Assembly (NCBI GenBank): GCA_947630505.1
Contig: CANRHV010000014.1
Location: 1 to 47,443, forward strand
Direction: 5' to 3'
Origin: an uncultured Monoglobus sp.
GTDB lineage: Bacteria; Bacillota; Clostridia; Monoglobales; Monoglobaceae
DNA: 47,443 bases
The stretch's first letter is position 1, and each line of letters begins with the position of its first letter. Under the pieces are notes generated by a model that ran no database searches, was not told where the DNA came from, and saw only the letters and a list, made by a program, of their open reading frames with translations. The translations under genes and the position numbers were made by a program. Positions 42,896-47,443 of this stretch are shown here, piece by piece.

Positions 42896-42972
42896 GCACC
42901 TTTAGCTCAGCTGGCTAGAGCACCTGACTCTTAATCAGGGTGTCCGGGGTTCGAATCCCCGAAGGTGTACCA
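42896..42972 (+). tRNA. tRNA-Lys (anticodon CTT)
   Basis: A 77-nt cloverleaf including encoded CCA. The acceptor is GCACCTT / AAGGTGT (one G-T pair), the D arm has AGCTCAGCTGGCTAGAGC, the anticodon stem CCTGA with loop CTCTTAA gives CTT (reads AAG), and the T arm has GGTTCGAAT. A tyrosine integrase gene starts its 3-prime end 93 bp away, which marks this tRNA as a likely attachment site. Confidence 0.96.
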
Positions 42973-42986
42973 CCCAAAAAGCCGTG

Positions 42987-43010
42987 AAACCGTAGGTTTT
43001 GCGGTTTTTT
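42987..43010 (+). terminator. probable terminator after tRNA-Lys
   Basis: A 6-bp stem (AAACCG / CGGTTT) with a 9-nt loop is followed by a T run ending at 43010. Confidence 0.55.
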
Positions 43011-43026
43011 GTTTGCCTAAAAAACG

Positions 43027-43048
43027 ATTTGCTCAACATTTGCTCAAC
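43027..43048. repeat. tandem 11-bp repeats, candidate integrase arm-binding sites
   Basis: ATTTGCTCAAC occurs twice head to tail (43027-43037 and 43038-43048), between the tRNA-Lys gene and the integrase 3-prime end. Short direct repeats at this place are typical arm-type sites bound by the N-terminal domain of tyrosine integrases. Confidence 0.5.
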
Positions 43049-43065
43049 ATTTTTATGTTTTGGCT

Positions 43066-44229
43066 TTATTGTAAGTTAAAGTTGTTTGCCAAAGCTTCGC
43101 TTGCTATCGCCTGAGCTCTCGAAAAAGCGTGGGCATAAATGTTTAGCGTTGTGTTGGCGTCGCTGTGCCCGAGACAGGATTGGACTGTCTTAACGCTTGC
43201 TCCGCTGTCGATCAGCAGCGAGGCGTTTAAGTGCCTGAAACTGTGAAGGCTGACATATCTCAGGTTCTCTCTTTTGCAAAAATTCTTTAACCATTGGCAC
43301 GGCGCGAGCGGTGACAAAACTTCGCCGTCATCCCGTTTGAATACAAAATCATTTTCAGCCCATTTTGTGCCGAATATGCGGCTCTGCTCCGCGTAAAAAT
43401 TTTGCAGCCTTTTCAGATAATCAAAAACTATTTCCGGAAGTTTGAGGCAGCGGTTTGAGGACAAGGTCTTTGGCGTGTCCAAAACATTTCCTTCAAACGG
43501 GATGTGATATAAGGCTTTGTTGACCGTGACTATATGATTTTCAAAATCAATATCGTCCCATGTCAGTCCGCACAACTCGCCTCTGCGGAACCCGCTGTAG
43601 ATCGCGAGTATAAAATAGGCTTGGTATTTTAACGGCGCTTTTTCGGTCAGATGTTTCAGAAATACTCTTGCCTCGTCAACCGTGTACATATCGCGCTCAG
43701 TCCGCTGCTCGCTTGGAATATTAGCGTTCCTGCACGGGTTTTCTTTTATTATATCCAGCCTTACTGCATAGCTGAAAATGGACGAGGCACAGGATATGTA
43801 GTTCTTGATCGACTTTGCTCCGAGAGGTTTGAGTCCTTTTGACTTATTGCCGCCGCTCAGTGAGTTTATCAGAAATTGTATTTCACGCTTGCCGATTTTA
43901 TCGAGTTTCAAATGCCCAATTTCCGATTTAAGCCTTTTCAGCATAGAGCGCATGTGATCAAGGTCGGTTTTCTTTAATTTCTTTTTGCCGTATTCCTCGA
44001 CCCACTGATCTATAAAATCGGAAAAATTTATCGGAGCCGAGACAAATCCGTTTTTACAGGCTTCCTCAAAAAGTATTGCCTGGCGGTTTACCTCTTTTTC
44101 AATCTGCTTTGCTGTCATGTTCGGGCTCGGTTTCCAGGTTTTTGTACGGAAAATTTGTTTTCCCGAAATGTCTCGACCGCAGCTTACTCGAATCTGATAG
44201 CTCTTGTTTCTTTTTGTTATATTTGCCAT
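43066..44229 (-). CDS. int: tyrosine site-specific integrase of a tRNA-Lys-associated element
   Basis: This 387-residue phage/ICE-type integrase has an N-terminal arm-binding region (ITKRNKSYQIRVSCGRD), a SAM-like core-binding domain (about 65-165) and a catalytic domain. The catalytic residues are complete: Arg215 (SGFRRGEL), Lys254 (TPKTLSSNR), His329 and Arg332 (LHSFRHLNAS), His355 (LGHSDANTT) and Tyr365 (NIYAHAF). The start has AAAGGGG 9 nt upstream. It is convergent with tRNA-Lys, whose 3-prime end is probably its attachment site. No excisionase, replication or structural genes follow to the right in this window, so it is either one end of a larger element or a stranded remnant. Confidence 0.92.
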   Translation of the reverse strand: MANITKRNKSYQIRVSCGRDISGKQIFRTKTWKPSPNMTAKQIEKEVNRQAILFEEACKNGFVSAPINFSDFIDQWVEEYGKKKLKKTDLDHMRSMLKRLKSEIGHLKLDKIGKREIQFLINSLSGGNKSKGLKPLGAKSIKNYISCASSIFSYAVRLDIIKENPCRNANIPSEQRTERDMYTVDEARVFLKHLTEKAPLKYQAYFILAIYSGFRRGELCGLTWDDIDFENHIVTVNKALYHIPFEGNVLDTPKTLSSNRCLKLPEIVFDYLKRLQNFYAEQSRIFGTKWAENDFVFKRDDGEVLSPLAPCQWLKNFCKRENLRYVSLHSFRHLNASLLIDSGASVKTVQSCLGHSDANTTLNIYAHAFSRAQAIASEALANNFNLQ

Positions 44230-44867: not shown

Positions 44868-45706
44868 ATGAAAAGCATTACAGATAAACATATAGAAAAT
44901 TTTAAGAGCTATCTCCAAAACGAGGAACGCGCGGCGGCGACCGTGGAGAAATATATACGCGACGTTAGCGCGTTCGGCGCATGGCTTAGCGGAAAAGAAA
45001 TTAACAAAAATGCCGTGCTCGCGTACAAGGAGTATCTAATCGAAACCTACGCGCCCGCGAGCGTCAATTCCGTCTTATCCTCGCTGAACAGCTTTTTCCG
45101 TTTTACGGGTTGGCACGACTGCCATGTGAAAACGCTGAAAATCCAACGGCAGATTTTCGCCAAAAGTGAAAAAGAGCTTACAAAAGCAGAATACGAAAGA
45201 CTCTTGAGCGCCGCGCAGAAAAAGGGCAACCGCCGGCTGTATTATCTTATGCAAACGATATGCAACACCGGCATACGAATATCGGAGCTGCGCTTTATTG
45301 ACGCAAACGCCGTTAAAACGGGCAAAGCGACGATACGGTGCAAGGGCAAAATGCGCGTGGTGATACTGACCGCGCCGCTTTGTAAAATGCTCAAAGGATA
45401 TATGAAAGAACAGGGCATAACGTCGGGCAGCGTATTTCAGACCAAAACGGGCAAACCGATGAACCCAGCAACGTATGGCGAATGTTAAAGGCTTTATGCG
45501 AAAGCGCGGGAGTATCGAAAGACAAGGTATTTCCGCACAACTTCCGACACCTGTTCGCGCGGACGTTTTATTCCATTCAAAAGGACGTGGTGCGGCTCGC
45601 GGACATTCTCGGTCATTCGAGCATAAACACAACGCGTATCTACACAATGGAAAGCGGCGCTGTTCACCTTAAGCAAATGCAAAAGCTCGGACTTTTGCGC
45701 TGTTAA
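44868..45706 (+). pseudogene. Xer-like tyrosine recombinase broken by a single-base frameshift
   Basis: Two frames together encode a recombinase of about 279 residues. The first (from ATG 44868, AAGGAG upstream) has the core-binding domain and catalytic Arg137 (CNTGIRISELRFI) and Lys161 (CKGKMRVV), reaching TGKPMN before it runs out of frame and stops at 45488. The second frame continues SNVWRMLKALCESAGV and carries HNFRHLFAR, LGHSSINTT and the tyrosine in TRIYT, ending at 45706. Restoring one G in AACC-CAGC (near 45464-45466) gives an uninterrupted protein with the usual NRSNVWR. It is thus either a recent pseudogene, a reversible frameshift, or a sequencing error. Its stop lies 2 bp before an inverted repeat that bounds a promoter-bearing segment, so it is the likely inversion enzyme. 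Confidence 0.85.
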
Positions 45707-45708
45707 AA

Positions 45709-45732
45709 AACAACATAACAGAAATTATGTTG
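45709..45732 (+). repeat. left inverted repeat (recombinase core site) of a candidate invertible segment
   Basis: This 24-bp site consists of AACAACATAA, spacer CAGAAA, and TTATGTTG (arm continuing TT). The arms are mutually complementary and the spacer is asymmetric, as in tyrosine-recombinase crossover sites. Its exact reverse complement lies at 46013-46036. The hairpin could also end transcription of the recombinase gene. Confidence 0.8.
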
Positions 45733-45767
45733 TTTAAATATGCAAATATGTCTACATAGATATAAAA

Positions 45768-45796
45768 ATTATAATACAAAACATTATGTTTGTCAA
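45768..45796 (-). promoter_or_regulatory. consensus promoter inside the invertible segment
   Basis: On the minus strand: TTGACA (45796-45791), exactly 17 bp, then TATAAT (45773-45768). It is the only consensus-quality promoter between the recombinase and the downstream surface gene, and it faces the wrong way for that gene. Confidence 0.88.
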
Positions 45797-45909
45797 TGAT
45801 TTGGGCTGATTTTTCTGGATTTAGATTAAATATTTATAAAAAATCACTTTTTACGGATTTTTGTAATTGTTTTGTTGTGAAAAAATAAAAAATATATCAC
45901 TCGAAGAAA

Positions 45910-45938
45910 ACCAATGAAAAGTCACAAGTTACATTGGT
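45910..45938 (+). terminator. possible terminator inside the invertible segment
   Basis: A 7-bp stem (ACCAATG / CATTGGT) with a 15-nt loop is followed by CTGTTTTTCGTGCTTTTTTT. In the present orientation it would stop rightward transcription toward the surface gene. The stem is short, so the call is tentative. Confidence 0.4.
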
Positions 45939-46012
45939 CTGTTTTTCGTGCTTTTTTTGCTTCATTTGTATCGGCAGAATACCGAAAACTATGGGATACC
46001 AAGCTTACTCAG

Positions 46013-46036
46013 CAACATAATTTCTGTTATGTTGTT
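46013..46036 (-). repeat. right inverted repeat (recombinase core site)
   Basis: Exact 24-bp reverse complement of 45709-45732: on the plus strand it reads CAACATAA, spacer TTTCTG, TTATGTTGTT. The opposite spacer orientation predicts inversion, not deletion. Confidence 0.8.
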
Positions 46037-46218
46037 ATAACAAAAATCACCTATCTAATTAAGAAACGCAACCTTAAAACATACGAGTATGAATGTAATT
46101 ATGAAAAAGCGCAGCATAAAATAAGCTCGGTGCGGCACAAACGGTGCTCGAAATGAATTTCCGATATGGTATTATAAACGATATTTATAGAAGGATATTT
46201 ACAAAAGGAGGAATGACT

Positions 46219-47443
46219 TTGAAAAAGCGAATTTTAAGTCTAACTGTTGTATTGTCAATGGTGCTTGCCATGATACCGGTGTTTAATCTAACCGCGTCAG
46301 CGGCGTTTGACGATGCCGCAGGCGGTACAGGTACGTCTGACGATCCGTATCAAATTGAAACCGCAGAGCAGCTTAAAAGGCTTTCCGAAAGCGTACAAGA
46401 CGGCAATACATATAGTGGTTACTATTTTAAGCTTACATCCGACATTGATTTGGGAGGAAATGAGGACAATCAATGGACGCCTATCGGAAGCAACGCTAAA
46501 TGGTTCAGCGGTAATTTTGACGGAGGAAACCATACTATAAGCGGACTATATATAAACGACGACAGTTTGCAGTATCAAGGTCTGTTTGGATATATTAGAG
46601 GCGACCAAATATCCACCATTAAAAATCTGACTGTTAAAGGCTCGGTTACAGGCGGCAATTATGTCGGCGGCATTGCGGGGTATGTGTGCGTAAACAGAGG
46701 CCACATAGATAATTGTCATAACGAAGCAACTGTATCCGGCATTCAGTATGTCGGTGGCATTACAGGCGAGTCTTATGCGGAAATAACAAACTGCTCCAAT
46801 ACAGGTGTAATAAAAGGTGAGCATTATGTAGGAGGTATCATCGGAAATAGATCTTTTTATTATTTTAATTCAAACACTATTGACGATCGTCTGACAAAAA
46901 ACTGTTACAACACCGGAGAAATAATTGGCGAGGGATATAGCGATTTTATCGGCGGCATTTTGGGACGAGGAAATAATGTAATGTATTGCTATAATACCGC
47001 AAATGTGAACGGGCAAACCTTGACTTATGTTGGCGGTATTATAGGAAGAAGTGTGACCGTGTCTGGTAATTATGTATCCACCTGCTATAATGTAGGTCTT
47101 ATTGGGACGGAGTCAAATAAGGGAGGCGGTATCATAGGGTATCTAGATGAGACAATTTATACTCTCGTTGAAACAAGGGCGTGCTATTACCTCGAAGGGA
47201 CAGCGGCAGACGCCAGTATGGGTACAGCAGCAGGGGGCGTGCACGTTGGCGGTTTGTTCGAGGGAACCACGGCTCAATTTAAGACACTTGCATCAGACGT
47301 ATCTGAATTTCGCAGCGAATATACGGACAGCGTATGGGCAGGCAGACCCCTCCTTAATACCAATAAAGTAGCCATGAGCAAAACTCCGAAAAGTACGTTT
47401 TTACGTGGGTTTACTCATGTTAAATTTTTTCTTATCACTCCAT
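46219..47443 (+). CDS. secreted GLUG-repeat surface protein (partial, runs off the window)
   Basis: The frame stays open from a TTG start at 46219 to the window end (408 codons). AAAGGAGG lies 7 nt before the TTG; the ATG at 46213 nearly abuts that site and is unlikely. A signal peptide of about 28 residues ends NLTASA. GLUG-type repeats follow: GTGTSDDPYQIETAEQLKRL, FSGNFDGGNHTISGLYI, NYVGGIAGYV, QYVGGITGES, HYVGGIIGNR. They resemble those of the giant protein at 13721 but are not near-identical. No good promoter lies in 46037-46218 (the best is TATTAT with a poor -35). Expression therefore probably depends on the invertible promoter upstream. The C-terminal anchoring cannot be seen. Confidence 0.85.
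   Translation, partial: MKKRILSLTVVLSMVLAMIPVFNLTASAAFDDAAGGTGTSDDPYQIETAEQLKRLSESVQDGNTYSGYYFKLTSDIDLGGNEDNQWTPIGSNAKWFSGNFDGGNHTISGLYINDDSLQYQGLFGYIRGDQISTIKNLTVKGSVTGGNYVGGIAGYVCVNRGHIDNCHNEATVSGIQYVGGITGESYAEITNCSNTGVIKGEHYVGGIIGNRSFYYFNSNTIDDRLTKNCYNTGEIIGEGYSDFIGGILGRGNNVMYCYNTANVNGQTLTYVGGIIGRSVTVSGNYVSTCYNVGLIGTESNKGGGIIGYLDETIYTLVETRACYYLEGTAADASMGTAAGGVHVGGLFEGTTAQFKTLASDVSEFRSEYTDSVWAGRPLLNTNKVAMSKTPKSTFLRGFTHVKFFLITP

Follow-up and report, generated by a model that had tools for sequence, protein, structure and literature searches.

An invertible-promoter cassette of a clostridial family, probably retired in the OFF orientation, in an uncultured Monoglobus sp.

The window, that is, the whole stretch of DNA that was analysed, comprises 47,443 nucleotides of one contig of an uncultured Monoglobus sp. 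Near its right end a gene for a tyrosine recombinase, a pair of inverted repeats enclosing a promoter, and a gene for a secreted surface protein follow one another, as set out below.

44868..45488, plus strand: N-terminal part of a XerA/XerD-like tyrosine recombinase, 206 aa, with a SAM-like domain and the first catalytic half, ended by a premature stop
45464..45706, plus strand: C-terminal part of the recombinase in another frame, with the motifs HNFRH, GH and Y (from Pfam and alignment)
45709..46036, no strand assigned: invertible segment including both sites, 280 bp between 24-bp arms, OFF as sequenced
45709..45734, plus strand: left recombination site, AACAACATAA-CAGAAA-TTATGTTGTT, with the exact inverted repeat making up its first 24 bp
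45768..45796, minus strand: promoter TTGACA-17-TATAAT, directed leftwards across the left site and antisense to the recombinase gene at its 3' end
46013..46036, minus strand: right recombination site, the inverted copy of the left one, spacer TTTCTG
46102..46125, plus strand: stub reading frame ATG...TAA (MKKRSIK*), a remnant of the ancestral switched gene start that has lost its RBS and is homologous to the gene start at locus L065
46148..46175, plus strand: candidate promoter of the GLUG gene itself, TCGAAA-16-TATTAT with extended -10 TATGG, homologous to the region upstream of L108/L109
46219..47443, plus strand: secreted GLUG-motif surface protein with a TTG start and a visible signal peptide, cut by the contig end

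The two 24-bp sequences at 45709-45732 and 46013-46036 are inverted copies of each other without a mismatch, and the repeat search bore out both the pair and the enclosed 280 bp as an earlier note, made from the letters of this DNA, had described them. About 4e-7 exact 24-bp inverted-repeat pairs are expected by chance in 47 kb of the same composition; the combination of such a pair and a promoter after a recombinase gene is far beyond chance. A genome-wide search found no second copy of the 24-bp sites elsewhere in the genome. Both sites are near-palindromic, and the 6 bp at their centre form an asymmetric spacer (CAGAAA in the left site, TTTCTG in the right), such that the asymmetric spacer and palindromic arms of the earlier description stand, the outer arm of the right site matching in 9 of 10 positions. 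With regard to other kinds of element, the RNA families found at the locus are two tRNAs and nothing further, and a search of viral contigs, bearing on phage origin, found neither the repeat nor any relative of the recombinase.

Within the segment, the perfect minus-strand promoter that had been claimed is indeed present at 45796-45768, where it matches the consensus in 12 of 12 positions; when the segment was shuffled 2000 times, 2 of the shuffled versions reached its score. The promoter faces the recombinase gene at its 3' end, so that the segment as sequenced is OFF, as was proposed, provided that the switched gene sits to the right. Set against the features of an inverton, the window has inverted recombination sites around a short segment and, as read from the sequence, an outward-facing promoter between them; what it lacks, by reason of a frameshift, is the complete tyrosine recombinase that nearly all relatives possess.

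In the recombinase gene, the frame that opens with the ATG at 44868 runs for 206 aa until a stop at 45488; the remaining 80 aa, which contain HxxR, GH and Tyr, are encoded in a different frame at 45464-45706. In other words, the two halves are split by a single-base frameshift near 45462-45467, within the catalytic domain, and the Pfam Phage_integrase profile is matched at positions 2-109 in one frame and 108-167 in the other. The claimed distance of 2 bp between the end of the recombinase gene and the left site thus holds for the C-terminal frame only, and not for the ATG frame. Pfam also excludes a serine invertase. Intact relatives have ca 279 aa, and the closest of them, L065, is intact at 279 aa and 93% identical to the N-terminal part; its alignment with the window over the whole gene contains one single-base gap only. 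Beyond the shift, the C-terminal part differs from L065 by 13 synonymous and 2 nonsynonymous changes, which argues that it was under selection until very recently and that the frameshift is either very recent or an error; the genome is a draft assembly of 119 contigs, and the shift may be a recent mutation or may have arisen in the assembly. A programmed frameshift was considered and rejected, since the relatives read straight through. No other member of the recombinase family was found in the window's genome at E <= 0.001. The earlier description of the segment as locked thereby gains a reason that it did not have before, namely a frameshifted recombinase gene together with the lack of a close second copy in the genome.

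A second, unrelated tyrosine integrase of 387 aa is encoded nearby on the minus strand at 43066-44229, just past the 3' end of a tRNA-Lys gene (region 42896-44229). The 3' end of a tRNA gene is the usual site of integrated elements, and the switch and the GLUG gene may lie on the same island as this integrase.

The recombinase belongs to a large family. A search for relatives over bacterial and archaeal genomes gave 43, and a search at the level of the class found a relative at E <= 1e-60 in 61 of its 391 genomes. A census of cassettes, from which duplicates were removed, comprised 104 recombinase loci in Clostridia. At 92 of these an inverted-repeat pair directly follows the recombinase, starting ca 10 bp past its stop codon, and at nine of the other 12 the contig ends within 135 bp of the stop. 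The exact core ACATAA-N6-TTATGT occurs in 80 site pairs with 55 distinct spacers, none of the 80 being palindromic. By simple consensus matching only, a strong promoter was recorded in 79 segments; in 72 of them it faces outward and lies 45-72 bp from the outer edge of a site, and its direction is towards the recombinase (OFF) in 54 and towards the next gene (ON) in 25. The geometry is hence conserved, and it is almost certain that the locus in the window belongs to this family of switches. The genes found 3' of the right site across the family encode secreted proteins, GLUG proteins, TetR regulators, a Band-7 protein, a helicase and Hsp70, a diversity which indicates that the cassette is not bound to surface genes. 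A further idea, that each switch has a private spacer serving as an address code by which the switches of one genome stay separate, is unsupported: diverse as the spacers are, pairs from one genome share a spacer no less often (4 of 42) than pairs from different genomes (58 of 3613), which gives no sign of avoidance.

Several variants of the cassette were observed. One genome (G352; L156-L160) holds six distant family members, 43-45% identical, with the core ACATTAT-N4-ATAATGT and an unchanged layout; recombinase and site seem, from comparison of these sequences, to have changed together. Three cassettes of another genome (L069, L070 and L071 of Lapin-015 bin64) have the common spacer CGGAAA, such that recombination among them is possible in principle, and all three are ON. 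The cassettes L073, L114 and L118 have three sites each, two of them in tandem 41 bp apart, with outward promoters at both ends, so that a flip would swap promoters rather than turn one off. In a relative, a set of three sites with the spacer TGGAAA/TTTCCA is also found upstream of a secreted protein of 1058+ aa (L112 2181-2740; G021:C5) with no adjoining recombinase, and may be an orphan switch or depend on an enzyme that acts in trans. Finally, a recombinase gene accompanied by its own 42-bp inverted copy and by two partial genes facing each other (L095 4376-4679; G031:C11) looks like a rearranged locus.

Both orientations of the segment occur among homologous loci. In 23 pairs, homologous segments align in reverse complement and have opposite promoter labels, as for L080 (OFF) and L121 (ON), with 90% identity over 175 bp, or L122 (ON) and L125 (OFF), with 82% over 215 bp; 48 pairs have the same orientation, and the labels are inconsistent in three (L043/L122, L043/L146 and L170/L171). 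The opposite orientation, which the earlier note had proposed to look for in related genomes, is thus present in the family, but the closest relative, L065, is likewise OFF, and at this particular locus, in the window and L065, OFF alone is seen; the reverse alignment of the window segment with the ON segment of L070 reaches only 75% over 65 bp. An assembler halts where reads diverge at an inversion junction, and breaks at the sites are expected wherever the reads contain both orientations. Nine of the 18 contigs that end less than 1 kb from a recombinase stop do so 0-12 bp past the end of a site, although an individual break may have some other cause, such as a mixture of strains. The contigs of L066, L067, L044 and L136 are examples that end at a site. 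The contig of the window continues unbroken through both sites. Taken as a comparison of cassettes across Clostridia, these observations strongly support the original reading of an invertible promoter between tyrosine-recombinase sites.

The gene to the right of the segment is another matter. It does encode a secreted GLUG protein, as had been noted, with a TTG start at 46219 and a recognisable signal peptide. At L065, however, the GLUG gene begins 68 bp past the right site with an RBS and an ATG, and in the window this same place is occupied by the stub, whose region aligns with L065 5174-5247 (blastn and alignment); only after the stub does a second, similar gene start, at 46219, lead into the GLUG protein. 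The stretch before this gene shares 75% identity with the regions upstream of GLUG paralogues in two relatives, L108 and L109, which have no sites nearby and are preceded by TTGAAA-17-TAAAAT with an extended -10. The candidate in the window is weaker than theirs, having TCGAAA and a spacer of 16. On the strength of this homology to unswitched paralogues, the present GLUG gene most likely arrived with its own promoter. It follows that, with the ancestral start dead and an own promoter probable, expression of the GLUG gene need not follow the segment. The statement that the gene has no good promoter of its own is hence doubtful in view of the candidate at 46148-46175, and that the surface protein is OFF finds no support; we consider it unlikely that the GLUG gene would be silent on account of the segment.

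A related arrangement is seen in another member of the genus (G006; L115), which has no such recombinase and yet has kept the left 190 bp of the segment, promoter included, at 86% identity. In this relic (L115 2184-2376; G006:C1) the left site is mutated and the right site absent, and the promoter now faces a minus-strand gene (1080-2063). To judge by its sequence, it is a further stage of cassette decay.

The pairing of an invertible promoter with a tyrosine recombinase is well known. As in Escherichia coli fimE-fimS, the end of a recombinase gene adjoins the left repeat, the segment contains an outward promoter, and in the OFF state this promoter faces the recombinase gene (PMC2845655, PMC7446863); unlike in that system, there is one recombinase here and not two, and the sites differ. 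The NCBIfam model for Fim-type tyrosine DNA invertases gives the intact relative L065 32.5 bits, below its cut-off of 221. With the RecV switches of Clostridioides difficile (cwpV and flagellar) the cassettes have in common their occurrence in Clostridia, a tyrosine recombinase and an association with surface genes, but RecV works in trans on several loci, whereas each cassette here has its own adjacent recombinase. Indeed, the RecV pattern of one recombinase with several unlinked sites is not that of the window, where the sites are unique and adjacent to the gene. The C. difficile flagellar switch moreover contains no promoter, in contrast to the cassettes described here, and loss of recV leads to phase-locked cells (PMC7446863). 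XerA, XerC and XerD are of the same fold family, and the best solved relative of the recombinase is an archaeal XerA-like recombinase (4a8e); the sites here, however, adjoin the gene and flank a promoter, with no dif site, and L065 falls below the equivalog cut-offs of NCBIfam for XerA (146.6 against 220), XerD (131.8 against 329.6) and XerC (114.8 against 335).

A close counterpart is found in a 2025 survey of a defined gut community, which describes an inverton group of 33 members, 32 of them from Clostridia, linked to a nearby group of tyrosine recombinases, and which tracked the flipping of inverton group 139 with invertase group 35 in Clostridium sp. D5 and Intestinimonas butyriciproducens (PMC11892184). 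Group 139 resembles the present cassettes in being clostridial, intergenic, ca 200-250 bp long and placed beside a tyrosine-type recombinase gene; judged by size and placement, the two are probably the same group, and the survey does not describe the broken recombinase and replaced downstream gene of the window (PMC11892184). A literature search for phase variation in Monoglobus found nothing.

The segment at 45709-46036 is, on this evidence, an invertible-promoter cassette and belongs to a family widespread in Clostridia, in which a dedicated XerA/XerD-like recombinase encoded just upstream would recombine two inverted ACATAA-N6-TTATGT sites. Each flip would turn an outward sigma-A promoter either towards the next gene, which it would then drive (ON), or back towards the recombinase (OFF). 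We infer that the recombinase of the window acted on the sites beside it. The cassette of the window is OFF and is probably unable to flip, its recombinase frame being broken and no close homologue being present; the ancestral switched start codon is dead, and the GLUG gene which now follows is probably self-promoted. In short, the window probably contains a recently retired switch, OFF and non-flipping as the genome stands, a reading to which we give a probability of roughly 0.6.

What speaks against retirement is that neither repeats nor promoter have decayed, and the same perfection of sites and promoter suits a switch that still works. In that case the frameshift would be an artefact of sequencing or assembly, the enzyme would be active, and the GLUG gene would vary in phase because transcription from the flipped promoter reads through into it, whether or not the gene also has a weak promoter. 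Such a switch would also account for purifying selection over both parts of the recombinase, for the intact gene in nearly all relatives and for L065, in which the same segment stands intact next to a GLUG gene. It must contend, however, with the frameshift as sequenced, with the defunct start of the stub and the new upstream region that separate the segment from the GLUG gene, and with a contig that runs unbroken through both sites, unlike those of several relatives; we hold it to be a serious contender, if not the expected outcome. Were the recombinase dead, the segment might still be flipped in trans by another enzyme, in the manner of RecV in C. difficile: master recombinases of this kind are known (PMC5903667), and the genome does encode other tyrosine recombinases, such as the 387-aa integrase. 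That the genome-wide search gave no further family homologue, and that the sites are unique in the genome and of a type paired with an adjacent recombinase gene, makes this very improbable. Nearly excluded is a reading without recombination, in which the repeats are a pair of regulator-binding sites, an RNA structure or a terminator, and the neighbouring recombinase is incidental. Each site is near-palindromic by itself, which speaks for that reading, but the spacers never are, the sites are always mutually inverted and track the recombinase across families, and the segments occur in both orientations.

The OFF geometry of the clostridial family, in which a near-consensus promoter ca 50-60 bp off is aimed into the cassette's own recombinase gene from its 3' end, is conserved. 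The OFF promoter could in this way stabilise its own state by antisense transcription of the recombinase, the switch in the window having then been fixed by loss of the recombinase and takeover of the target by a self-promoted gene. This is a speculative and rather unlikely proposal; if true, it would mean that a bias is built into the switch.

For phase variation read from a single genome the locus offers a caution, in that perfect repeats and a perfect promoter are compatible with a broken enzyme and an independent neighbouring gene. The window is one case seemingly caught during the retirement of its switch. The overall picture in gut Clostridia is one of self-contained promoter switches that form a large and uniform family, are portable and have been placed before very different genes.
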